Part shown: piece by piece, positions 41,820 to 63,684 of the stretch | Position numbering within the stretch: position 1 is the first letter of the stretch | Layout of the letters: every line of letters starts with the position of its first letter | Source: Aurantiochytrium sp. KH105 | Lineage: Eukaryota; Sar; Bigyra; Thraustochytrida; Thraustochytriidae | Length of the DNA stretch: 64,000 nucleotides | Reading direction: 5' to 3' | NCBI GenBank assembly: GCA_003116975.1 | Contig: BGKB01000020.1 | Span: forward strand, 769,126-833,125 | Notes under the pieces: generated by a model | The model's database searches: none | Told to the model about the DNA's origin: nothing | What the model saw: only the letters and a program-made list of their open reading frames with translations | Translations under genes and position numbers: made by a program

Positions 41820-44015
41820 TTACGCTTTGATGAAGGACTGAACCTTTTCAAAGATCTTGACGAAGAGCGGCACAGGCTGGTTGAATACGTCGCCCGTGCG
41901 AGCAGTCTCGATGACGGCAGCGAGACGCGTGCCTTGGTCGATTGCGCGCTTGGCATCGAGCTCTGAGGCCTCCTGAGAGCCACCAATGAGAAAATACTTT
42001 GTATCACCACTGGTCTTGGCTTGGGCCTTGTCCCAAAGCGCACGCTGCGCGACCTGACCAGCACAAATGACAACATGATCGACGTCGAGGACCTGATCCT
42101 TGCCCTTGACCTGAATGTGGAAACCGTCATCGTCGACCTTGACGTACTTGACATTGCGAAGCATGTTAACTCCGCGATGGCGAAGCGAGGTGCGGTGAAT
42201 CCACCCTGTAGTTTTGCCCAAATTGGCGCCTACCTTGTGTTTACCCCGCTGCAAAAGAAAGATTTCGCGTGGCGAATGTGTCTGGTCGGATTCGGCCTCG
42301 TCGGAGGGAGCGAGACCTCCGCGAGTGCTATTGGAAAGATCGATTTTCCACTCGTGAGCAAAAGCCTCGAGCGCGGATGGCTTGGCAAGGCCCGGATCGG
42401 GGCCCTTCTCCGTGAGACCTTTGCCCTCTGGATCAGAGAGAAATTCGGCAACGTCAAAGCCGATGCCGCCAGCACCTACAATGGCGACCCGCTTGCCGAC
42501 CTTGACTTTGCCACAGAGGACGTCGACATAGCTGACAACCTTGGAGTGGTCGCTACCGGGAAAGCTGACCTGGCGAGGCGCGACACCAGTGGCCAAAACA
42601 ACATGTGTGTAGCCTGCAGCATCGAGATCTTCGATGGAGACTGCACGGTTGAGTTGGAGGTCGACCCCCTTGCGATGGATCTGCGTGGAAAAGTAACGCA
42701 GGGTCTCGAAGAACTCTTCTTTGCCAGGGATGCGCTTGGCCATGTTGAATTGACCGCCAATGTCAGCATCTTTTTCGAAAAGCGTAGTTTCGAAGCCGCG
42801 CTCAGCACAGCTGACCGCGCAAGCAAGGCCAGCAGGGCCCGCGCCAACGACCGCGACCTTGGAAGACTTGCGCAAGTCGTCCGAGATGGGCGCAAGTTTG
42901 AGCTCCGTTTCGTAGCCTGCAAAAGGGTTGACCAGACACGAGGCACGCTTGCCCTGGAAAGCGTGGTCAAGGCAGGCTTGGTTGCAGCCAATGCAGGTGT
43001 TAATACCCTCCTCGTCTCCCTGCTTGGCCTTTTCGATGAGATTGGGATCCGCAAGGAAGGGACGCGCCATGGACACCATGTCCGCGTAGCCCTCGCGCAG
43101 AATGTCCTCCGCGGTGCTGGGCATGTTGATACGGTTCGTTGTACACACAGGGATGTCGACCTTGCCCATGAGGTTCTTGGTGACCCAGGCAAAGCCTCCA
43201 CGCGGCACTGCAGTGGCAATTGTGGGAATGCGCGCCTGATGCCAGCCAATACCCGTGTTGATGATAGAAGCCCCAGCGGCCTCGATTTCGCGCGCCAGGA
43301 GCTCAATCTCTTCCCAGGTGGACCCTCCCTGCACGAGATCGAGCATGCTCAAACGGTAGATGACGATAAAGTCTGGCCCGAGCGCCTCGCGAATGCGACG
43401 TACAATTTCAATGGGAAAACGGATCCGGTTCTCGTAGGCACCGCCCCACTTGTCGGAGCGCTTATTGGCCTCGGCGGTGATGAACTGGTTGATGAGGTAA
43501 CCCTCGGAGCCCATGACCTCGACGCCGTCGTAGCCGGCCTCGCCAGCAAGCTCCGCAGAGCGGACGAAATCGTCAATGGTGTCTTCCACGTCGCTCGAGG
43601 ACAGCGCCTTGGGCGTGACCATGCTGATTGGCGACTTGAGCGGCGACGGTCCAACGGCCCAGTGGTGATAGGCGTAGCGGCCAGAATGCAGAATTTGCAT
43701 CGCAATGCGCCCGTCCTCAGCGTGCACAGCCTCGGTCACGGCCTTGTGTTTGTCGCGGTCGCTGGGCGTGCTCATCTTTGCCGCCATGTAGGTGACGCGG
43801 CCGGCGTTGTTGGGACTAATTCCTCCGGTCACGAGCAGCCCGACGCCGCCGCGCGCGCGCGCTCCGTAGAACTCGGCCATGGCCTCGAGACTACCATTCT
43901 TGGTCACCTCTTCGAGGCCCGTGTGCATGCTGCCCATGAGCGCCCTGTTCTTGAGCACGACGCGGCCCTTGTTGAGCTCGAGCGGCTTGAAGAGGTGCGG
44001 AAACTTGGTCGCCAT
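41820..44015 (-). CDS. NADPH-dependent 2,4-dienoyl-CoA reductase, bacterial FadH type
   Basis: The frame upstream is GC-rich UTR-like sequence; the ATG at 44015 begins MATKFPHLFKPLEL and gives 731 residues (bacterial FadH about 670). The FMN-binding TIM barrel of the old-yellow-enzyme family occupies ~1-335, with the catalytic Tyr173 (GSEGYLINQFI) and His259 (GIGWHQARIPT). The 4Fe-4S cluster ligands are Cys341, Cys344, Cys348 and Cys360 (CIGCNQACLDH...SCLVNP). An FAD/NAD(P)-binding module follows with GAGPAGLACA near 390 and a second dinucleotide motif VGAGGIGFDVAEF near 525. The enzyme reduces 2,4-dienoyl-CoA from unsaturated fatty acid beta-oxidation. All cofactor sites appear intact. No clear targeting peptide or C-terminal SKL-type signal. 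The minus-strand neighbour upstream is the NADPH oxidase, 662 bp away. Confidence 0.93.
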   Translation of the reverse strand: MATKFPHLFKPLELNKGRVVLKNRALMGSMHTGLEEVTKNGSLEAMAEFYGARARGGVGLLVTGGISPNNAGRVTYMAAKMSTPSDRDKHKAVTEAVHAEDGRIAMQILHSGRYAYHHWAVGPSPLKSPISMVTPKALSSSDVEDTIDDFVRSAELAGEAGYDGVEVMGSEGYLINQFITAEANKRSDKWGGAYENRIRFPIEIVRRIREALGPDFIVIYRLSMLDLVQGGSTWEEIELLAREIEAAGASIINTGIGWHQARIPTIATAVPRGGFAWVTKNLMGKVDIPVCTTNRINMPSTAEDILREGYADMVSMARPFLADPNLIEKAKQGDEEGINTCIGCNQACLDHAFQGKRASCLVNPFAGYETELKLAPISDDLRKSSKVAVVGAGPAGLACAVSCAERGFETTLFEKDADIGGQFNMAKRIPGKEEFFETLRYFSTQIHRKGVDLQLNRAVSIEDLDAAGYTHVVLATGVAPRQVSFPGSDHSKVVSYVDVLCGKVKVGKRVAIVGAGGIGFDVAEFLSDPEGKGLTEKGPDPGLAKPSALEAFAHEWKIDLSNSTRGGLAPSDEAESDQTHSPREIFLLQRGKHKVGANLGKTTGWIHRTSLRHRGVNMLRNVKYVKVDDDGFHIQVKGKDQVLDVDHVVICAGQVAQRALWDKAQAKTSGDTKYFLIGGSQEASELDAKRAIDQGTRLAAVIETARTGDVFNQPVPLFVKIFEKVQSFIKA

Positions 44016-44677
44016 CGTGGACGGCTGTGCAAGGACTCGTTCGCTAGGGCCTAGGTTCCCGCGCGCCTCGCGTGTGCAGCCAGTCTCCTCTGCGCCCCGC
44101 CACCCTCGCGCGGGCCTCGCGTTGCCTCGCGCCCGAGACGGGTCTGCTGCGCGCGCCGCGCGCCTCGCAGCGCGGCCCCTCGGCAAGGTGAAGTGCGAAT
44201 GCAATGCAATGCAATGCAATGCAATCGCGCACCGCACACGGTGAAACCCAATGTGCAACATGGACTCTGGACTTTCTTTCCATCTTCTTCGTTTGCAAGT
44301 CCCAGCACGCTCGTGACTAGGCTACTAGACCTAACTCGAGCAACAGCACAGAGCCGCGGCGGCAAAGGCCAGAGAAGCTGCCTCAAGCAGCAGCAAGCCT
44401 TGCTGCCAGGCCGCGGCAATGCCGAGCATTATGTCTACAACGACAAGCTCAGGCTAAGTTTGTTGCAGTCGGGCCACGCCAGGTTTAACGGAGGTTCGAA
44501 GGTTGTAGAACACGTCAGAGATTACGTTAATAGCAAAAGTCTGCGCTGACCTGGCTGACTCATTGAAGAGTCTGTCCTCGCTGAGTGACGGTGCGAAGGA
44601 GCAAGATGTGAATCTGATTTGAACAGCAAAGAGAATGACGACAGGAGTGTTTCTTTTTTGTTTTTTGTTTTTTTTTT
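44016..44677. other. Dienoyl-CoA reductase promoter / NADPH oxidase 3' region
   Basis: 0.66 kb. It contains a (GCAAT)5 array at 44201-44225, about 190 bp upstream of the reductase start, and a T-rich run near 44650-44675. No gene seen. Confidence 0.55.
44201..44225. repeat. (GCAAT)5 pentanucleotide array
   Basis: Five perfect units, the reverse complement of the ATTGC array at 23066-23165. Confidence 0.95.
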
Positions 44678-47239
44678 CTAAAAGTTTTCCTTGTGGAGCT
44701 CGAAACGACAGTTGTCCTGGAGCGAAGAGTACTTGTGACAGAACTGCTTGAGGTCTTTACCGATGATGGGCGTGCCGCAAAAGCAGACGCCGATTCGGTC
44801 GACATTTCGTTGACGATTCTGCTTCACGTAGGCAAAGATCTCGTCCCAGTTGGGACGACCGTTCCAGATCCAAATATTTTGGTATTGATTCGCAGCAGGA
44901 GACGTTTCGTGCGTGGCATCGAGCGGCGGGAGCGCGGACGGCATTTGTTTGGAGGACACGCTCGGATTAAGAAGCGCAAGCTCGAGGTCTGCGGCAGTGA
45001 AACCCAGATCAACATTCATGCCTGCCTGGCGTGTGGTGAGGCCAGCGTTTGCGCTGTCATCCGCACTCCTCGTTGCGGAACGCGGCGAAGCGCCAGAGAG
45101 ACGCACGCTCTTCTGACGTTCGACACGCTTGCCATCCCTGGGAGCACGCGTAACAAAGAGATGGATTTGGAGTCGATTGTGCGCGCGATCAAGAGCCCCC
45201 GCAGCGTAGTCGCTGGCAACATTGCCTTGAAGCTCATGAAGAAGAGCAATGAACCATCGAAAGGAAAAGATTTCCGAATGACGGACGACAAAGAAAAAGT
45301 GAATTGTGCTTGGGTTGAATCCCTTTTTCCACTTGTGCCGCAAGACGGACTGAATGATGGCCGAAGAAGGAGTGAGCCCAATGCCAGCGCCAACGAGCAT
45401 GACCTCGTCGTACTCAAAGTAATGCTGGGCCGGTGCGGCATGTGGGCCATCGACCTGGATGAGCGGCAGACCATCGGGCCCAAGATGCTTGCCGCGTTGC
45501 TGCACGCCCTGGCTGTCGAGATGCGAGAGATACAGGGAAAAGTCTTTGCTATTGCTTGCATTGGGAGACCCGGCCATGCTTCGAAAGCGCTGGCAGAGCT
45601 GATGGGTCCAACTTCCTTCTGCCTGGACGCGAATGTGCAAGGTGACCTCGCCATTCTTCTTTTCCAGGTCTTCGTAGGCAGAGGAGATTGTGAAAGGGTG
45701 CCACGCAAAGGTGGAAATCGAAGGCGCGAGAAGATGCAGATACTGGCCCTCCTTGAAGACAAAGTCTCCAGGGCGGCCCGGAAAGAAACTGATGCACATG
45801 ACGGGGTCCTTGAAGATGACCGAAGAAACGTAAAACGCCTTGCGGCCTTTGCGCTCGCGATAAAATCGCTCTGCCGTGTACGCAAGAAGAGGAATGCAAC
45901 CCCAGAGCCAGAACTTGGGCGCGTGGGCGAGCAGACAGGCGAAGAAGAGCAAAAAGGCATGATGCGTGTTCCAAAAGGTCTCGTACTGAGCGCGCTTGAC
46001 GCGGTTCTGGGCGCCAGCAAAGATGACATACATTGCAAAGGTGATGAGAAAACCGGTGATAAAGGCGCCCGGCTGGAAAATGTTAGTTGTGGCCTCGGGG
46101 GCCTTCCAGAGGTTGAGCATGTGAAAGACGATGTGGCCAATCGATCCGGCGAGGACAAAGATGGCGATGAACTTGTGGAGAACAATGTTCTTGCGGAGCG
46201 GGGGCATGTACTTTGCAATAGTGGAGGACCCATTGACGGAGAAGTTGTTGAGTCTCCGCACAAGCGTGCGCAGCACAGGCAGCAGGATGACACTGCAGTT
46301 GAAATTGAGTGTCTGTCCAAAGGCTTTGGCAAAGGGCGCATAGTCGGAGAGACAGAGGAAGGGCGATGCTGTCGAGCACGCCTTTTGCGACTCGTTGACA
46401 AGGTCGACCCACTCGGCAAGGCGTTGTACCCAGAGGACAACATTGATGAGAACGTAGATGGTGACAAAGACGACCTGGCCTGCAGCACCAATCTCGATAA
46501 GGCGACTCCAGACAGTGCTGATTCGTTCGCCAATGGACTTGGACCGCGCACGTCCTTCCTCGTCATCTTGGTGCACGGCAGCCTTGTTTTCGCACTTACA
46601 GAGGAGGAAGGATTCATGTACAACGTTTTGTGGCGTGAGCGTTTCGTTACGATGCGTAGCGGCAAGGTTGGCGGCGGCGCAAATGATCATGACGCCACCT
46701 GCCAGCATCGTTGGATAGGAAAACATTGTCCCGACCGCGAGGACGATGTATGCTGCGCCCCGAAGCCAGGACCTGCCTGCGTTTACTTGTTCGCCCGGAA
46801 GCCAAGAGCATTGTCGAAGCCCATTCGTTTTTTCCCAGGCGAGAAGAAGGATGCCGATGGCCACGCAGTAGGGACCGCAAAAGTTGGCGGCAAAGAGGAC
46901 GTCTCCTGCGGCTGGACGGTCAATGATCTCCTGCGACCAGGTCACGGCAATGAAGCCAAAGGCAATATTGGACAAGCCGGCGGCATACCCAAGATTGTGC
47001 GCCCAGAGCGTGAATGTGAGGACATCGGCGCCGGGCGGAGGAGCTGGCGGGGTTTGTTTGGCTGTGTTGACCTGCAGCGGGGTGATGACCGGGCTTTGGC
47101 AGGGTGAGTGTACCTGCTGCTGTTGTTGCAGGTTCTGTACAGGAGCTCGAGGAGGTTCACTTTCAGCAAGCTGGGTTTGGCGGTGCGTGAGGTGCGCTGG
47201 TTTGATGGGTTTGGGCGGTGGGCTCGAGGTCGGGATCAT
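44678..47239 (-). CDS. NADPH oxidase (NOX) with N-terminal p22phox-like domain
   Basis: The ATG at 47239 gives 853 residues in one exon. After a Pro/Gln-rich N-terminus, residues ~74-203 form about four hydrophobic helices resembling p22phox/CYBA: LWAHNLGYAAGL, a Glu at 136 after YCVAIGILLLAW, Arg160 at the start of RGAAYIVLAVG, and NETLTP closing the segment. The NOX core follows with the four heme histidines at the expected spacing: His355 and His369, then His426 and His439 (14 and 13 residues apart). The FAD motif HPFTISS is at 514-520, the NADPH site GAGIGLTP is near 620, and the conserved C-terminus ends CFCG...HKENF. The enzyme should move electrons from NADPH across a membrane to O2, giving superoxide. 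No EF hand is visible. The p22phox-like part is a similarity I read by eye. Confidence 0.88.
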   Translation of the reverse strand: MIPTSSPPPKPIKPAHLTHRQTQLAESEPPRAPVQNLQQQQQVHSPCQSPVITPLQVNTAKQTPPAPPPGADVLTFTLWAHNLGYAAGLSNIAFGFIAVTWSQEIIDRPAAGDVLFAANFCGPYCVAIGILLLAWEKTNGLRQCSWLPGEQVNAGRSWLRGAAYIVLAVGTMFSYPTMLAGGVMIICAAANLAATHRNETLTPQNVVHESFLLCKCENKAAVHQDDEEGRARSKSIGERISTVWSRLIEIGAAGQVVFVTIYVLINVVLWVQRLAEWVDLVNESQKACSTASPFLCLSDYAPFAKAFGQTLNFNCSVILLPVLRTLVRRLNNFSVNGSSTIAKYMPPLRKNIVLHKFIAIFVLAGSIGHIVFHMLNLWKAPEATTNIFQPGAFITGFLITFAMYVIFAGAQNRVKRAQYETFWNTHHAFLLFFACLLAHAPKFWLWGCIPLLAYTAERFYRERKGRKAFYVSSVIFKDPVMCISFFPGRPGDFVFKEGQYLHLLAPSISTFAWHPFTISSAYEDLEKKNGEVTLHIRVQAEGSWTHQLCQRFRSMAGSPNASNSKDFSLYLSHLDSQGVQQRGKHLGPDGLPLIQVDGPHAAPAQHYFEYDEVMLVGAGIGLTPSSAIIQSVLRHKWKKGFNPSTIHFFFVVRHSEIFSFRWFIALLHELQGNVASDYAAGALDRAHNRLQIHLFVTRAPRDGKRVERQKSVRLSGASPRSATRSADDSANAGLTTRQAGMNVDLGFTAADLELALLNPSVSSKQMPSALPPLDATHETSPAANQYQNIWIWNGRPNWDEIFAYVKQNRQRNVDRIGVCFCGTPIIGKDLKQFCHKYSSLQDNCRFELHKENF

Positions 47240-48383: not shown

Positions 48384-49595
48384 ATGGACGGAAGCTGGGA
48401 GGTCTTTGAGACCCCGGACGTTGAAGATGCGTACGACGAGGACGTGCGCCGAAGCGAGCCAACAGCGGCGACAAGCGGAGGCGAGGACGGTGCTCGGGTA
48501 GACGCTGCGCCTGCGCCAGAGCCGGAGCGCGTGTTTGAGGTATTTGCTGGCAAACGCTTCGTGGTTGACCGGCGCAAGGCGCAGGAGAATGAGGACCAAC
48601 AGGTCCCACGAAGGAGACTTGCGCCCGAGGAAGTCGGCAGTCTCTTGGAGTCACCATTTGAGCGGTTTAACAGGCTCAAGGCGGAAGTTGCAGAGCTCAT
48701 GAACGACCTCGAAATCGATGAAGATGATGAGCTCGGGAGTGAAGGTGGTTCGCACAGCGACGCGTATGAGCAGCTTGCAAATGGCGTCAAGACGCTAAAA
48801 CAGTCGCTCATGACCCTCAAGGGCCAGCAGGGCCTTGCCACGCTCTTGAGTAATCAAGAGAGTAGCACGGAGGATCGTGCGGCGGCGCAGGCCCTCAACA
48901 AGGCCCGCGCCGACGCCTTGCGGCAACGTTTGGATCAAGGCCATAAGGAGTCAGGCAACGGCGACGAGACGTCAACGACCGTGAGTTTCGATTTACTGTA
49001 CGCGGGCGATAGTGCAGCGACATCGGTCGACACGGAGCAGCCGAGTGCCCTGGAGGCTCGCGTGCGTGCTCTGGAGGCCTTGCTTGGCGACGCTTCCTCA
49101 TCGCCTTCGGGATCGCAGCCACAACAACAGCAACAGCAGCATCAAAGACCTCTTTTGCAAACGGTGGATTATCTAGAAAAGCAGGTGCAGCTGCTGGATG
49201 AGGCCAAGTTGAGTCATCTCACTCAAAAAGCAAAGGCCTTGAACTCTGAACTGGAAGAGTCTGCGCGCTTACGGCAACGGCGACGAGCTGCTGGCGGAGA
49301 GGGCGAGCCCTCGGGTTCTCTGGCAACAAGCGAAGTGTCAGACGTTTTGCGCAAGCTCGACAACGTTGATGCTGTCGCTGGAAGTCTGCCAGGCATCGTT
49401 GACCGCCTACGTACAGCACAAGAGATTCATCAGCATAATGCTAATCTTCACACGCGCCTCGATGAGCTCGATCGTGTCCACGCTGAGCTCGATGAGGCGG
49501 CCTCGTTGGACCGCGAACTGCTCGAGACGCTCCAAAAGAGTCTTGCAGAGAATGTAGAGCGCATGCAAGCGCACATCGACGCTTTGCAGCAGTGA
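48384..49595 (+). CDS. DCTN2: Dynactin subunit 2 (dynamitin, p50)
   Basis: I use the ATG at 48384 (MDGSWEVFETPDVED), giving 403 residues; the frame is open further upstream without family similarity. Features fit dynamitin: a short N-terminal peptide with paired Glu/Asp and a VFETPDV core, an acidic linker, then several coiled coils (about 105-175, 210-235, 255-295 and 320-400). The central SxEELxS/FxRFNRLKAEV helix near 90-105 also fits. A short poly-Gln stretch lies near 246. Dynamitin forms part of the dynactin shoulder, which links cytoplasmic dynein to cargo. The C-terminus ends in a CAG tract that continues past the stop codon (see findings). Converges with PIG-P. Confidence 0.83.
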   Translation: MDGSWEVFETPDVEDAYDEDVRRSEPTAATSGGEDGARVDAAPAPEPERVFEVFAGKRFVVDRRKAQENEDQQVPRRRLAPEEVGSLLESPFERFNRLKAEVAELMNDLEIDEDDELGSEGGSHSDAYEQLANGVKTLKQSLMTLKGQQGLATLLSNQESSTEDRAAAQALNKARADALRQRLDQGHKESGNGDETSTTVSFDLLYAGDSAATSVDTEQPSALEARVRALEALLGDASSSPSGSQPQQQQQQHQRPLLQTVDYLEKQVQLLDEAKLSHLTQKAKALNSELEESARLRQRRRAAGGEGEPSGSLATSEVSDVLRKLDNVDAVAGSLPGIVDRLRTAQEIHQHNANLHTRLDELDRVHAELDEAASLDRELLETLQKSLAENVERMQAHIDALQQ

Positions 49596-49812: not shown

Positions 49813-50238
49813 TTATGATTGTACAGGTGATGCACGATGCAAGAGACGCGCGACTTGAAGCGCCGAAAGATCATTGACAAAGGGAGTATCGCGATGCGAG
49901 TCAACCCAGTTGTCTCCATAACGGCGTTTTTGACGCGCGCCTTGCGTGTCGACGATGGTTTTAAAGTCCTGAGGCTCCGGCATGGAGGCGAGACTAAAGA
50001 GCGCGTAGAGAATGATGCCGGCGAGAAGAGCAACGCTAACGAAGAGCGGCACGGCGAGCGCAAAGTAAACGTCCGGGGTCCGTTCGCGAAGTGCTGCAAG
50101 GAGATCGGTCGTTTCCCATCCGAAAAGAGTGTTCGCACGGTCGTGGAGACCCAAGAGCGGGCCGAGGGTCCATGCAAGAAAGGTGATGGCGCCAAGCGCC
50201 CCCGAGACTAGCACGGTGAAGCCGCGCTGCGCGCCCAT
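49813..50238 (-). CDS. PIGP: GPI-GlcNAc transferase subunit P (PIG-P/GPI19 family)
   Basis: The ATG at 50238 (MGAQRGFTVL) gives 141 residues, the usual length for the family; frame upstream uses only a TTG. Two membrane helices (about 4-25 and 58-83) flank a luminal loop. The pattern of PIG-P is recognisable: an aromatic before the second helix (TPDVYFALAVPLF), the D-F-KTIVDTQ block after it, and the C-terminal TPFVNDLSALQVARLL, which parallels the ISxxEVxxxxF end of the human protein. PIG-P belongs to the ER complex that transfers GlcNAc to phosphatidylinositol, the first step of GPI-anchor synthesis. Small size makes the call less certain, but the two-helix topology and the C-terminal motif agree. 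Confidence 0.75.
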   Translation of the reverse strand: MGAQRGFTVLVSGALGAITFLAWTLGPLLGLHDRANTLFGWETTDLLAALRERTPDVYFALAVPLFVSVALLAGIILYALFSLASMPEPQDFKTIVDTQGARQKRRYGDNWVDSHRDTPFVNDLSALQVARLLHRASPVQS

Positions 50239-51056
50239 GGCGCCAGTGTTGGCCCACCAAAACAAATCAAACAGAACGACGCAGCCTCGGAATGCCGAGA
50301 ATCAAGATTTTCCAACCTCCCGTTATTTCGGGGCTTTCCGTAGAGGTCTGCAAGACCCCCCCTTCCTTCAGCATAAATCCGAGTATACGCAACTCGAAAA
50401 GGGGGTATGTTGTAAGTTGTGGGATTGAGTGGTCCGGAGCACATGCGCCGCGCCGCAGCGGCAGCAAACCCGCGAGGATTTGCAGCAAACCCGAATCGGG
50501 ATGGCTGATGCAAGCTTCGGAACGAGGTACGTGTCTTGTGTATGCATAGACCAAGAGAGGGACTGGCGGAACGACTGGACAGGATGCATGGAGGAGCGGG
50601 TGGAATGGAAAGGAATGGAGTGGAATAGATAGCGCGCGAACCGGAACGGTTGGCGTGGAGGTTGCGTTGCACATCTTATCTTTGCGATGAAGACGAAATG
50701 CTTGGCACCAGTCCGATGCCCGGCGCATAGCGTCGGGAGGATGAGGATTAAGCTTTTTTTGGAATTACCGACTGAGCAAGATGAGAGGACAAAAGGATAT
50801 GTGAACCTGTTGTGCGCGTGACGGTGCGAGGGGGAAAAGAGTCGACGGAAGAGGAGCGAGATGGGGTGTCCAAAAGATGCATAAAGGAACTCAGCAAACT
50901 GACTTTGACGCCACTCGTTTCCAATCTTCAGATATTTTTTAATTAAGGCCCTAGATATGATCCGCTTGCGACAATGCAAGCTCTTGCTGTCCACAAAGGT
51001 CTTGCGGCGGCCAAGGGGAACGAGTTTTACTTTAACAACAACAATAACAAGCCGCA
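50239..51056. other. Intergenic region upstream of PIG-P
   Basis: 0.82 kb between the PIG-P start and the stop of the next minus-strand gene. A short GGAAT-type run lies at 50600-50630. No coding frame with family features. Confidence 0.55.
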
Positions 51057-59475: not shown

Positions 59476-62400
59476 TTAGTCACTTTCGATGAAGCCAAGC
59501 TCAAACAGCTTAGAACTATGAAACCCTTCCCTTCTTCTCGCTTTCACGATCGCATCGTCGACGGGAGTGGTGATTGGCTTGCGCCGCCAACCGCGACGCC
59601 GCCAACCGCAACTTCGACCTCGACCTCGACCTGCAGAGGCTGCTGAATCAGAATGGAGCGAATACAATTCGTCGTGGAGACCTCCATCTTGCCCCACACT
59701 ACGGACGATACGCAACGTGTCGCCGACAAAATCGATGTACTTGATCTTGCCCCCTTTTCCTATTTGGGGAGTGCGAAGTTGCTCTCCCGTAAGAATGTCC
59801 CAGATGCCCAACAACGAAGTGCTATCCCACCAATTGAGCTCCCTAACAAATGCGACATAAGAGTTCCCCAACAAGGGGTACCCATAAATTTGAGAGTGAA
59901 GGTTTCTCAAGTTTAGGTCTATCGCATTGACAAGGTCTCCAGTTTTGAGGTCCCACACGTAGATAAAGCCCGACCTCTCACCCGCCAGATCTCCAACGAT
60001 TGAGGTCGTGACCGCACGAGCACCAAACGTGCGAGGAATGGATTCGCCTTGTGACCGAGCTGGCTCTTTGCATGAAGACAGATCAGCAAGATTCCATTCA
60101 AGAATGCTTGCCTCTACCTTGGTATCATCGTCACGATTCGTGACTGCACATGCCAAAAGAACGTCGTCCAGAACTGCCAATGAATAAATATAAGAGTCAG
60201 ATAAAGGCATCTCGAGGTGCTGCTGACAAGTTGCTGCACCCCAAACAAGAAGTTTGCCCTTGTTTTGTAGATGCAGAAAGCAAATGATCCATTTGCTGGT
60301 GAAAAGGACGAACTCCGGAAAGCCAGACCTGCACTCGAGCTCCCGTAAAAGCTCTCCATTTTCAGCATCCCAAATGCGCACGACTGAATCTTCTGCCCCT
60401 GTGACAATGCTCGCAGGAGATGCCGCGACGGTCGTGACCGATGTGGAATGACGCAGCTCATGGAGCTGAGTTCCTGTCTCTAGATCCCAAACGCGCGCGG
60501 TCTCGTCCGAAGACGCAGTCGCGACCCGCGAAACTGAGATGGCTATGCCCTCGATAGGCTTCGTGTGACCACTCAATACGTGCATTTTCTCGCCTGTATC
60601 CACATCCCAGACCTGAGGCTCGAAAAGCGGCACTCGCCGATGTAACCAATGCTCGCAGATGACGAGACGCGACCCCTCGAGAAGAGCGAACACGTTGACA
60701 TTCTTCGCTTTGATTTCGCGCAGAACTTGCCCTGTCTCGACGTTGACAATGTACGCAGTTCTCCCCACGGCAAATACTGCACGAGACCCAGAAATATCAA
60801 TGGAGGTTGCCCATTCCTTCGCCTTCTGCGGACAAGCAAGGGGAAAGATCCAAGAGTGAAGGTGTTCGCGGGAAGTCATGTCCCACAAATGGGCCCATCC
60901 ATTTGCTTGAAGGCAAATAACGCGTGAGCCTTCGATTGTGACCCACTTGAAAGCGTCACCATCCTCGTAAGGGAGTATTTTCGAAACAAGGCGATCACGA
61001 GGCCGGTACCGGGGATGGGGCAGGCTTTGTCGAATGGGCCTGAGCCATTTGCCAGGAGGGGCTTGCATGCTGGTATACAGTGGGTCGTTTCGGTCCCTAT
61101 GCGGGTCAAAACGCGCGAGAATCTGGGGTGCCAGCTGGCGAGGGTCTCGGGCAAGCTCCAGCACCGCTTTGTGCAACAGCTGCGGCGTTAGCGTTCCAGC
61201 TGTCTCGTACAGGGCAGCCTCTTTGCAAAATTGAACCAAGGCAGTGAGGTGTTTGTACCTTTCCTCGAGCGTATCACCCTGATCAATGGCTTGCTGGACC
61301 CAGGAGAAATCATTAAGGAGCGAGACGGTTTGGTCAAATTGACCACATGCAATGAGATGAAAGAGAACGTGGCGCAACGAGTAGTCATCCTCGGCGTTTG
61401 CCAGGCAAAGGGCTGCCAGACTCTCGTGCCCCAGTTCGCAGTCCACGCTTTGGTCGCCGCTTTCGTCCTTGTTCGTGAGCCAGCACGCTACAGAGGGATG
61501 TACCAGTGAGTAGCGACCGCGCGCGTTTTGCACAATGATGCCCGATGCCTGGTCGAGGGTCTTTTCAGTCTCGGCGTGATCTTCGAGGCCCAGCAAGGCC
61601 TGTATGAACTCGATATGCAAGGGCTCGCGCGCCGCCGCAAGAGGCGCGAGCAAAGCGGTGTACCGGTCGCTTTTTTCGTCATTTAGACTTGCTTGAAGCT
61701 GGTAAAAGGCTTTCGAGCGCATGGCATTTAGACCTCGAGGAATGAGATCATGATCCTCGACGTCTGAGAGAGTCAGCATGCACTTGGATGAAGCGACTTG
61801 CGCTCTTCTCAACACACACGAAAGAAATCCTGCCCAGAGGAAGCTGCCCTGAGAAGACTCGGCCAAGACGTTTGTGCATGCGTCCAAGTGCTCGGGATCG
61901 ACCACGTTTTCCATGTCTCGGAGCAAAGACGCGACGTGACATTGCATATCAAAGAGATTGTCAGGATCCAGAGGGTTCAGGGGGTCTAGCGTCTTGTGCT
62001 CGAGCGCTTCATTGAAGATAAAATGCTGCAAATCAACTTGAACCTCAGACTCTTTTCGTGTGCTGACGAGAAAGGGGAGCCACCACGAGTCTGGGTTTCG
62101 GGACCAAGGGCCAAGGACGTGCTTGACGAATGCACTGCCATCATCGCACTCATCAATTGCGTCAATGACAATGACGAGACGTGTCTCCTCGTCGTACTGA
62201 ATATCACGGGCCGGTCGAGCTAGAAAGTGTCTGTAGAGCTCCGAGAGTGTAAGCTTGTCAAAGAGTTTCTTTGACTCACCATTGTCACAATCTACATCAA
62301 GGAGAAAGTGATGCGAAAGAACCTCTCTCACAGCCTGTGCAAAATTGTCCACGGACTCACACAGTTGCCAGATGATGTTGACCAACGCTTGCTTGGCTGA

Positions 62401-63684
62401 AGAGGCGATCTCGTCGTTTCTGCGGAAAAAATGAAAGGCTGCGACGGTGAGGCCTGTTCGAGGCACTTCGCCGTTCCGCCGCCAGAGTCTCCGGATACGA
62501 GACATGCTCTTTCGTAAAAGGCTGCGACGAACACGTACGGGCTGTGGCAATGCATCCTCGAGCCCGCAAGTGCACAGAATGGCAAGTAGCACGCTCTTGC
62601 CTGTGGCAGGACCCCCAGATAGAAGAAAAAATGGGCTCTGCACGTCTTCAAACCACGTAGCGATGCTGTTCAAGACCCAAGCCCGCGTCCCATAGGTAAA
62701 TGCTGCAGCCTTGTCCTTGACCCACGCCCTGTCGTCACTTGGGGTGAAAAGGAAATAAATGTCTTGAATGTAGGGCGACAAGGGCGCTTCTACGGAGCGC
62801 AAGGGCGCTTGGATGCGCTCTTTGACTTCGTTTGCAAGACGCGCCATGACATCCTTGGTGAGTGACGTCGCATCAATTGGAGTCAAGTGCAAGAGGCCGA
62901 ATCCAAAGCTTGCGCGCCACGCCATTTCGGAGTCAATCATGCCCACTTCAAGCGCTGCAACAATTGTGCGCGAGTACCGACGCTTGCATATTTCCAAAAA
63001 GGCATCTCGGCTAGGGTTTGGAAATCGTCTTCTGATGTTGACCGTGTGCATGTACGCTTTTGTCGCGAGGACAAGGACGGTCGTGGACACCTTGATGTTA
63101 GCGACGAGGCTTTCCGTATCTGCCATGGCTGATTTTGTGGGGAGCCTCACCGAGAGATCATGGTCCTTTTCGAGAGCACGGGCAACTGTCGTGGCCAAAT
63201 CGTGCGAGCTCAGATCATGAGCTATGAATACATCGTCTTTGCTCCGGGGCAAAGTGGACTTTGCCTTGGCCTGGATTTGACTCACAAGCCTCGCGAGGTC
63301 TGCGGAGTCTGGATCGCAATAGTCAAAGTAGGGTTCGTTGCCAAGGTATAGCCCGGTTGCGCCTTGCCAGTCATCTTGCGTGTCGCGCATGCTTTCATCC
63401 ACGACAATGGGGACGTCGCGTCTCGGTTTGTCCCTTTTCCTTCTTCTTTCATCCACGCGTGATTCGAGCATCTCCTCCAGGACGCTTGTCTCGGCGCTCA
63501 CGACAAAGAGCGCGACATGGTCTTGGATATCTTCCACCTCTTTTCTCTCGGTGATTGTGCGCACGGGCGACCCAAGGAGCGCCTCCAGCGCCTCCGCGAG
63601 CTGCGCGGCGCGCGCCGCATCGCCAGCGTCGCAGACGATCCACACGTCCAAGTCGTCCGCGCCGGCCGTCGTTGGAGACGGCAT
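59476..63684 (-). CDS. STAND ATPase: two TIR-like domains, NACHT-type NTPase and WD40 repeats
   Basis: The ATG at 63684 gives 1,402 residues; frame upstream starts only at a TTG. The N-terminus has two TIR-like alpha/beta segments (~11-140 and ~151-275). The second begins DDVFIAHDLSSHDLATTV, with Glu231 in DAFLEICKRR at the place of the usual TIR catalytic Glu; the first is more diverged. A NACHT-like NTPase follows with Walker A GGPATGKS (357-364) and Walker B LVIVIDAIDECDDG (~480-493). Helical linker sequence continues to ~900. The C-terminal ~450 residues are WD40 repeats (for example VLSGHTKPIEGIAIS, TASSDETARVWDLETG, TGAEDSVVRIWDAENG). STAND proteins with such sensor/effector parts act as innate immune or regulated-death receptors. 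That role is inferred from architecture; ligand and pathway are unknown. Confidence 0.8.
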   Translation of the reverse strand: MPSPTTAGADDLDVWIVCDAGDAARAAQLAEALEALLGSPVRTITERKEVEDIQDHVALFVVSAETSVLEEMLESRVDERRRKRDKPRRDVPIVVDESMRDTQDDWQGATGLYLGNEPYFDYCDPDSADLARLVSQIQAKAKSTLPRSKDDVFIAHDLSSHDLATTVARALEKDHDLSVRLPTKSAMADTESLVANIKVSTTVLVLATKAYMHTVNIRRRFPNPSRDAFLEICKRRYSRTIVAALEVGMIDSEMAWRASFGFGLLHLTPIDATSLTKDVMARLANEVKERIQAPLRSVEAPLSPYIQDIYFLFTPSDDRAWVKDKAAAFTYGTRAWVLNSIATWFEDVQSPFFLLSGGPATGKSVLLAILCTCGLEDALPQPVRVRRSLLRKSMSRIRRLWRRNGEVPRTGLTVAAFHFFRRNDEIASSAKQALVNIIWQLCESVDNFAQAVREVLSHHFLLDVDCDNGESKKLFDKLTLSELYRHFLARPARDIQYDEETRLVIVIDAIDECDDGSAFVKHVLGPWSRNPDSWWLPFLVSTRKESEVQVDLQHFIFNEALEHKTLDPLNPLDPDNLFDMQCHVASLLRDMENVVDPEHLDACTNVLAESSQGSFLWAGFLSCVLRRAQVASSKCMLTLSDVEDHDLIPRGLNAMRSKAFYQLQASLNDEKSDRYTALLAPLAAAREPLHIEFIQALLGLEDHAETEKTLDQASGIIVQNARGRYSLVHPSVACWLTNKDESGDQSVDCELGHESLAALCLANAEDDYSLRHVLFHLIACGQFDQTVSLLNDFSWVQQAIDQGDTLEERYKHLTALVQFCKEAALYETAGTLTPQLLHKAVLELARDPRQLAPQILARFDPHRDRNDPLYTSMQAPPGKWLRPIRQSLPHPRYRPRDRLVSKILPYEDGDAFKWVTIEGSRVICLQANGWAHLWDMTSREHLHSWIFPLACPQKAKEWATSIDISGSRAVFAVGRTAYIVNVETGQVLREIKAKNVNVFALLEGSRLVICEHWLHRRVPLFEPQVWDVDTGEKMHVLSGHTKPIEGIAISVSRVATASSDETARVWDLETGTQLHELRHSTSVTTVAASPASIVTGAEDSVVRIWDAENGELLRELECRSGFPEFVLFTSKWIICFLHLQNKGKLLVWGAATCQQHLEMPLSDSYIYSLAVLDDVLLACAVTNRDDDTKVEASILEWNLADLSSCKEPARSQGESIPRTFGARAVTTSIVGDLAGERSGFIYVWDLKTGDLVNAIDLNLRNLHSQIYGYPLLGNSYVAFVRELNWWDSTSLLGIWDILTGEQLRTPQIGKGGKIKYIDFVGDTLRIVRSVGQDGGLHDELYSLHSDSAASAGRGRGRSCGWRRRGWRRKPITTPVDDAIVKARRREGFHSSKLFELGFIESD

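Follow-up and report, generated by a model that had tools for sequence, protein, structure and literature searches.

The oxidase gene and its parts

In the window analysed here, a 64,000-nucleotide stretch of contig BGKB01000020.1 from the thraustochytrid Aurantiochytrium sp. KH105, a gene on the reverse strand encodes an NADPH oxidase (NOX) whose chain carries, ahead of the oxidase core, a four-helix membrane segment resembling p22phox. In animals the stabilising partner of the superoxide-type oxidases, p22phox, is a separate protein. Here the segment and the oxidase core lie in one open frame, and this arrangement is present on two contigs for each of two diverged paralogs. The parts of the window gene are as follows:

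44678..47239 (stop included), reverse strand: whole gene, an open reading frame of 853 residues (p22phox-like module, linker and NADPH oxidase core)
47189..47221, reverse strand: proline-rich motif PPPKPIKPAHL, residues 7-17, of the PxxPxK type, putative SH3 ligand
46631..47029, reverse strand: p22phox-like module, residues 71-203, predicted four-helix membrane segment (AlphaFold2 model, Foldseek, alignment with shuffles, hhalign)
46499..46630, reverse strand: linker, residues 204-247 (44 residues), free of methionine, presumably cytosolic
44681..46498, reverse strand: NADPH oxidase core, residues 248-853, with the C-terminus KENF of human NOX2 (phmmer against the PDB)
45932..46198, reverse strand: Ferric_reduct, residues 348-436 (PF01794, 3.9e-9, over cut-off)
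45551..45775, reverse strand: FAD_binding_8 stretch, including HPFTIS (PF08022, 4.9e-9, over cut-off)
44738..45412, reverse strand: NAD_binding_6 stretch, including GAGIGLTP (PF08030, 2.7e-17, over cut-off)

The frame starts at the ATG at 47239, the first in-frame methionine downstream of an in-frame TAG, and ends with the TAG at 44678; a frame of identical length, 98% identical to the window gene, occurs on contig C121 (L002). The single PxxPx(K/R) occurrence in the protein of the window gene (residues 8-13) lies N-terminal of the module. A Pfam scan of the whole protein gives no match within its first 300 residues with the limit set as loosely as E 10, and no EF hand anywhere in the 853 residues. 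An ATG frame of 648 residues runs antisense to the oxidase (window 45161-47107, forward strand); since the neighbouring gene (41820-44261) also has an antisense frame, of 659 residues, GC-rich codon usage is the probable cause.

The first-pass annotation had placed an intact oxidase core after the p22phox-like segment, and this holds: the core continues in the same 853-residue frame, with three oxidase Pfam domains over cut-off. Its best phmmer match in the PDB is human NOX5 (7.7e-42), with NOX2 at 1.2e-37, and the alignment with NOX2 shares LNFNC..ILLPV, the NOX2 histidines, HPFT and GAGIG.TP, and both chains end in KENF. H355, H369, H426 and H439, in and around the Ferric_reduct stretch, align with NOX2 histidines and are presumably the four heme ligands. 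H373 and T395-G396 correspond in the alignment to H119 and T178-G179 of NOX2; H119 and (T/S)G are given in PMC3591440 and PMC9421330 as distinguishing NOX from ferric reductases. Of the features expected of a NOX, the core has a heme domain with its histidines, the equivalents of H119 and TG, and the FAD and NADPH domains. The motif (V/I/L)xGP(F/Y)G, listed for NOX in PMC9421330, is absent, VDGPHA standing in the window core and VDGPHS in the paralog described below.

Likeness of the module to p22phox

The first-pass annotation had recognised a p22phox pattern in residues 74-203 (window 47020-46631), and the landmarks it relied on are all in place: LWAHNLGYAAGL (residues 78-89), E136, which closes a hydrophobic helix, R160, which opens the next one, and ETLTP (residues 199-203). 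By Smith-Waterman alignment, residues 4-133 of human p22phox are collinear with the module, 32 of the 115 aligned residues being identical, with a score of 65. This score is reached by 0, 4 and 2 of 10,000 shuffles that keep local composition (block 5, 10 and 20); shuffles average 31-33 (Gumbel p 2-4e-4) and reversed sequences score 31. Among 3,749 overlapping open-frame segments from the window and 41 loci, four exceed 65, all from L012/L013, which had entered the 41-locus set through the search with PF05038 itself, the Pfam model of p22phox (gathering cut-off 25 bits). When module and p22phox are compared by hhalign, 120 columns align with p 0.001 but a probability of only 21%. By direct alignment, then, the module is more like p22phox than shuffled sequence is, but profile methods do not find it.

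Over the genome, PF05038 finds nothing at E 0.001 and, at a loose limit, L012/L013 only (E 0.19), where the control set also gives one match (E. coli); the module is not listed by this search. The L012/L013 match, of 16.7 bits, is the genome's best and lies below cut-off in a frame of about 1,400 residues; by Smith-Waterman it scores 67 against p22phox.

The AlphaFold2 model of the module, with a mean predicted local distance difference test (pLDDT) of 60, has four helices:

46925..47029, reverse strand: helix 1, residues 71-105 (model 12-46)
46808..46906, reverse strand: helix 2, residues 112-144 (model 53-85)
46730..46780, reverse strand: helix 3, residues 154-170 (model 95-111)
46640..46717, reverse strand: helix 4, residues 175-200 (model 116-141)

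When this model was compared by Foldseek with 350,542 PDB chains, ranks 1-3 were taken by three p22phox chains, which lead the other matches by an order of magnitude in E. For the module alone, the structural comparison that the first-pass annotation had asked for thus comes out in favour of a p22phox fold. The positions at which p22phox contacts NOX are occupied, in the alignment, by mostly hydrophobic residues.

p22phox contains an internal network of N11, E53, R90, H94 and Y121, in which E53, R90 and H94 are sites of disease mutations (PMC9711523). By alignment, the corresponding positions of the module are:

46997..46999, reverse strand: H81, at p22phox N11
46832..46834, reverse strand: E136, at p22phox E53, identical
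46760..46762, reverse strand: R160, at p22phox R90, identical
46748..46750, reverse strand: Y164, at p22phox H94
46667..46669, reverse strand: N191, at p22phox Y121

Two of the five (E and R) are identical to p22phox, the remaining three (H, Y, N) are polar residues other than those of p22phox, and all five are invariant between the window gene and its paralog, where they are H241, E300, R319, Y323 and N350. Among the 99 columns aligned in all three sequences, 33 are identical between the paralogs, including the five network positions (hypergeometric p 0.0033); when only the 10 identical columns of type NEDQHRKY are counted, a residue class of our own choosing, they again include all five (p 3.5e-6). 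The alignment itself was picked for its score, and such a choice makes identical E and R more likely. A conservation test of whether p22phox matches more often at columns on which the paralogs agree is suggestive at most (Fisher p 0.068). The predicted structure supports a p22phox fold for the module, and these positions support a polar core comparable to that of p22phox.

A second oxidase with an SH3 domain

The genome encodes a second oxidase of the same layout:

L003:433-3327 and L004:448-3342 (contigs C78 and C255), forward strand: second NOX paralog, a frame of 965 residues (open reading frame and Pfam)

Its order is a degenerate WW domain (E 0.028, below cut-off), an SH3 domain (PF14604 1.9e-8 and PF00018 6e-7, each above its cut-off), then a PPKPAR motif, followed by the module and the NOX core. 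Identity to the window gene is 31% in the module and 41% in the core, and the order of module and core is kept through this deep divergence. PPKPARL precedes the paralog module and resembles PPPKPIKPAHL of the window gene; the best Pfam match of that module is CD20 (E 0.018, below cut-off). By analogy, the SH3 domain would stand where animals use a separate organiser, and its presence together with PxxPxR on one chain suggests control in cis. A third gene (L005, L006) is ferric-reductase-like, with frames of 588-589 residues, 25% identity over 168 core residues and no match to the module.

Other phox parts and neighbouring genes

A genome search for other phox parts gave 54 PX matches, 87 SH3_9 matches and four PB1 places; this survey, made by eye and blind to introns, shows no absence. 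Two frames with both PX and SH3 (L018, L019) were considered as p47phox and look by eye like the sorting-nexin type instead, and two of the four PB1 places (L020, L021), considered as p67phox or NoxR, by eye resemble neither. Beyond this genome, patterns derived from the oxidase core only gave no relative among 137 matches in genome contigs and 231 in viral contigs.

Adjoining the oxidase, window 41823-44261 (reverse strand) encodes an Old-yellow-enzyme-type FMN oxidoreductase (PF00724) with a Pyr_redox_2 domain. Upstream of the oxidase gene lie Dynamitin (48384-49592, forward strand, PF04912 6.1e-43) and PIG-P (49816-50301, reverse strand, PF08510 5.3e-12), and window 59479-63684 (reverse strand) encodes a protein of 1,402 residues in which an NPHP3_N NTPase stretch is combined with WD40 repeats, in an NLR-like layout. 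Elsewhere in the genome, the ends of contigs C72 and C155 (L042, L043) carry a PfaA-like polyunsaturated fatty acid synthase broken off in its acyl-carrier part, a gene that points to a thraustochytrid and hence a stramenopile. The KS-AT-ACP frame of L042, interrupted by the contig end, reaches 992.8 bits against a cut-off of 1010.1; among the best 60 of 124 PDB matches there are other polyketide synthases only, and we take L042 to resemble Schizochytrium OrfA.

Interpretation and alternatives

We think that the gene probably encodes a membrane NADPH oxidase with a p22phox-like four-helix subunit fused to the N-terminus of its catalytic chain. It is highly improbable that the two parts are made as separate proteins, by splicing, separate starts or cleavage, with no functional fusion: methionines stand at residues 1, 172, 178 and 184 and next at 345, the first core helix lies near 253-271, and a separately started core would lose its first helices because no methionine lies between 184 and 345. 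The frame is, moreover, single on four contigs. Since the window gene, the paralog and many other matches occur as contig pairs, the assembly probably holds two haplotypes, and these differ in residues 211-247 by no nonsynonymous and five synonymous changes, which again speaks against two proteins. The corresponding numbers are 4 and 9 in the module (ratio of nonsynonymous to synonymous polymorphism, pN/pS, 0.15) and 11 and 39 in the core (0.08), and such counts argue that module and linker are probably under purifying selection. No free-standing module was found in an intron-blind genome search with the module only, which returned four places, all of them in the window gene, the paralog or the second copy of either. 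An artefact of assembly or frame joining two genes is more improbable still, the order of the parts being repeated on four contigs, two per paralog, and nothing was found in its favour.

The alternative that deserves most attention is that the four helices ahead of the core are an unrelated extension, like p22phox by convergence or hydrophobic composition, and a number of results weigh on its side. Membership of the CYBA family, to which the first-pass annotation pointed, was not borne out by the profile: PF05038 gives the module alone 9.5 bits (E 0.95), aligning 47 residues over helices 3-4 with 47 profile positions, and it ranks second behind Cg6151-P (E 0.22), both below cut-off. In a phmmer search with p22phox over 1,910 frames the oxidase frame is at rank 816 of the 1,453 listed (-1.6 bits), the paralog frame being at rank 85 (0.7 bits); phmmer with the module finds nothing in the PDB at E 10, and a PDB profile search returns 12 sequences, 11 of the GLP-1 receptor and one uncharacterised, which we take as noise of hydrophobic helices. 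The VIA Z of p22phox is tied with unrelated bundles. The paralog module alone is without p22phox signal, its score of 37 being reached by 131-206 of 1,000 block-10 and block-20 shuffles, and its low-confidence model (mean pLDDT 46) finds no p22phox among 50 Foldseek and 183 VIA chains. Plant and protist ferric reductases with two or six extra N-terminal helices are described in PMC3591440. Two absences also count against the fusion reading: the C-terminal SH3-binding proline-rich region of p22phox is missing after the module, and the TXXT motif of the NOX1-4 loop D is absent, TSST of NOX2 aligning with AGAQ. Against an unrelated extension stand the three p22phox chains at the head of the Foldseek ranking, the rarity with which composition-keeping shuffles reach 65 and the polar residues at all five network positions, and we regard it as unlikely, if far from negligible. 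Because TXXT is absent and the proline-rich motif is N-terminal, we call the module p22phox-like and not a textbook p22phox, and we do not assign it to CYBA, since two features that define CYBA, the PF05038 score and the C-terminal proline-rich region, are lacking.

On the fusion reading, a single-chain oxidase working like flavocytochrome b558 is most likely, and we infer a self-contained flavocytochrome with 1:1 stoichiometry. The module would sit against NOX helices 3-5 in the manner of p22phox, which docks there through its helices 1 and 4, and like p22phox it would lend stability to the heme domain. The outcome would be a stable 1:1 flavocytochrome in which electrons would pass from NADPH to FAD, to two hemes and to oxygen on the far side. 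The NOX2 TXXT loop is touched by p22phox W9 and Q13 (PMC9568551), and the contact of module and core must differ in detail from that of p22phox and NOX2 because TXXT is AGAQ here. The 44-residue linker would join the cytosolic end of the module to the cytosolic N-terminus of NOX; such a fusion is topologically workable, since with four helices the two termini of the module are cytosolic, as the NOX N-terminus needs to be. The N-terminal PxxP motifs and the paralog SH3 may replace the animal contact between SH3 and p22phox, in cis or between paralogs.

That the phagocyte-oxidase plan (NOX with p22phox and an SH3-proline contact) occurs outside opisthokonts as one polypeptide is a possibility that we put forward tentatively, and with some doubt. 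If it were true, p22phox would predate animals and fungi, having split from a fused ancestor or been captured by fusion here, and the paralog would hold the subunit, the docking motif and the SH3 organiser together in one chain, under control in cis or through pairing with the copy that lacks SH3. The presence of a p22phox-like module in two stramenopile NOX paralogs bears on the origin of p22phox. A single-chain flavocytochrome would fix the stoichiometry and give structural work an inseparable complex, and with the paralog, SH3 control of a NOX would become testable within one chain.

Comparison with known systems

In the literature searched (titles and abstract openings, with few subscription journals and preprints), no natural fusion of NOX and p22phox was announced. 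Published accounts describe p22phox as confined to opisthokonts (PMC9421330), with an early p22phox in a choanoflagellate (PMC2121648), and call its origin unknown (PMC3591440); according to PMC5372347, an arthropod NOX4 is active in the absence of p22phox. A transcriptome table of the thraustochytrid QPX (PMC3986615) includes a contig labelled 'Superoxide NADPH oxidase', which may be an ortholog.

With human p22phox (CYBA, the flavocytochrome b558 light chain; PDB 7u8g, 8gz3, 8kei) the module shares the predicted four-helix fold, a collinear alignment over residues 4-133, E53 and R90, and R.E..TP past helix 4. It has the same five residue types in its polar core, in a different order. It differs in being fused to NOX, in a longer loop between helices 1 and 2 and a shorter one between helices 2 and 3, in carrying its proline-rich motif on the N-terminal instead of the C-terminal side, and in its PF05038 score, which stays below cut-off. 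With NOX2 and NOX1-4 the core shares the heme, FAD and NADPH domains, LNFNC..ILLPV, the equivalents of H119 and TG, and KENF; it differs by AGAQ for TXXT, VDGPHA for VxGP(F/Y)G, a short helix 5-6 loop and the N-terminal module. NOX5 is known from human and cyanobacteria, and the core finds its best PDB match in human NOX5; here, however, the Pfam scan shows no EF hand, and a p22phox-like module is present instead. Fungal NoxA and NoxB with NoxD and Pls1, as described in PMC9421330, likewise combine a NOX free of EF hands with a small membrane partner, a likeness by description only, and there the partner is a separate protein, unlike the fusion seen here. The oxidase of Naegleria gruberi, according to PMC3591440, resembles the paralog L003 in that its own chain includes an SH3 domain, but this lies within the NADPH domain, whereas in L003 it is N-terminal, ahead of the module.
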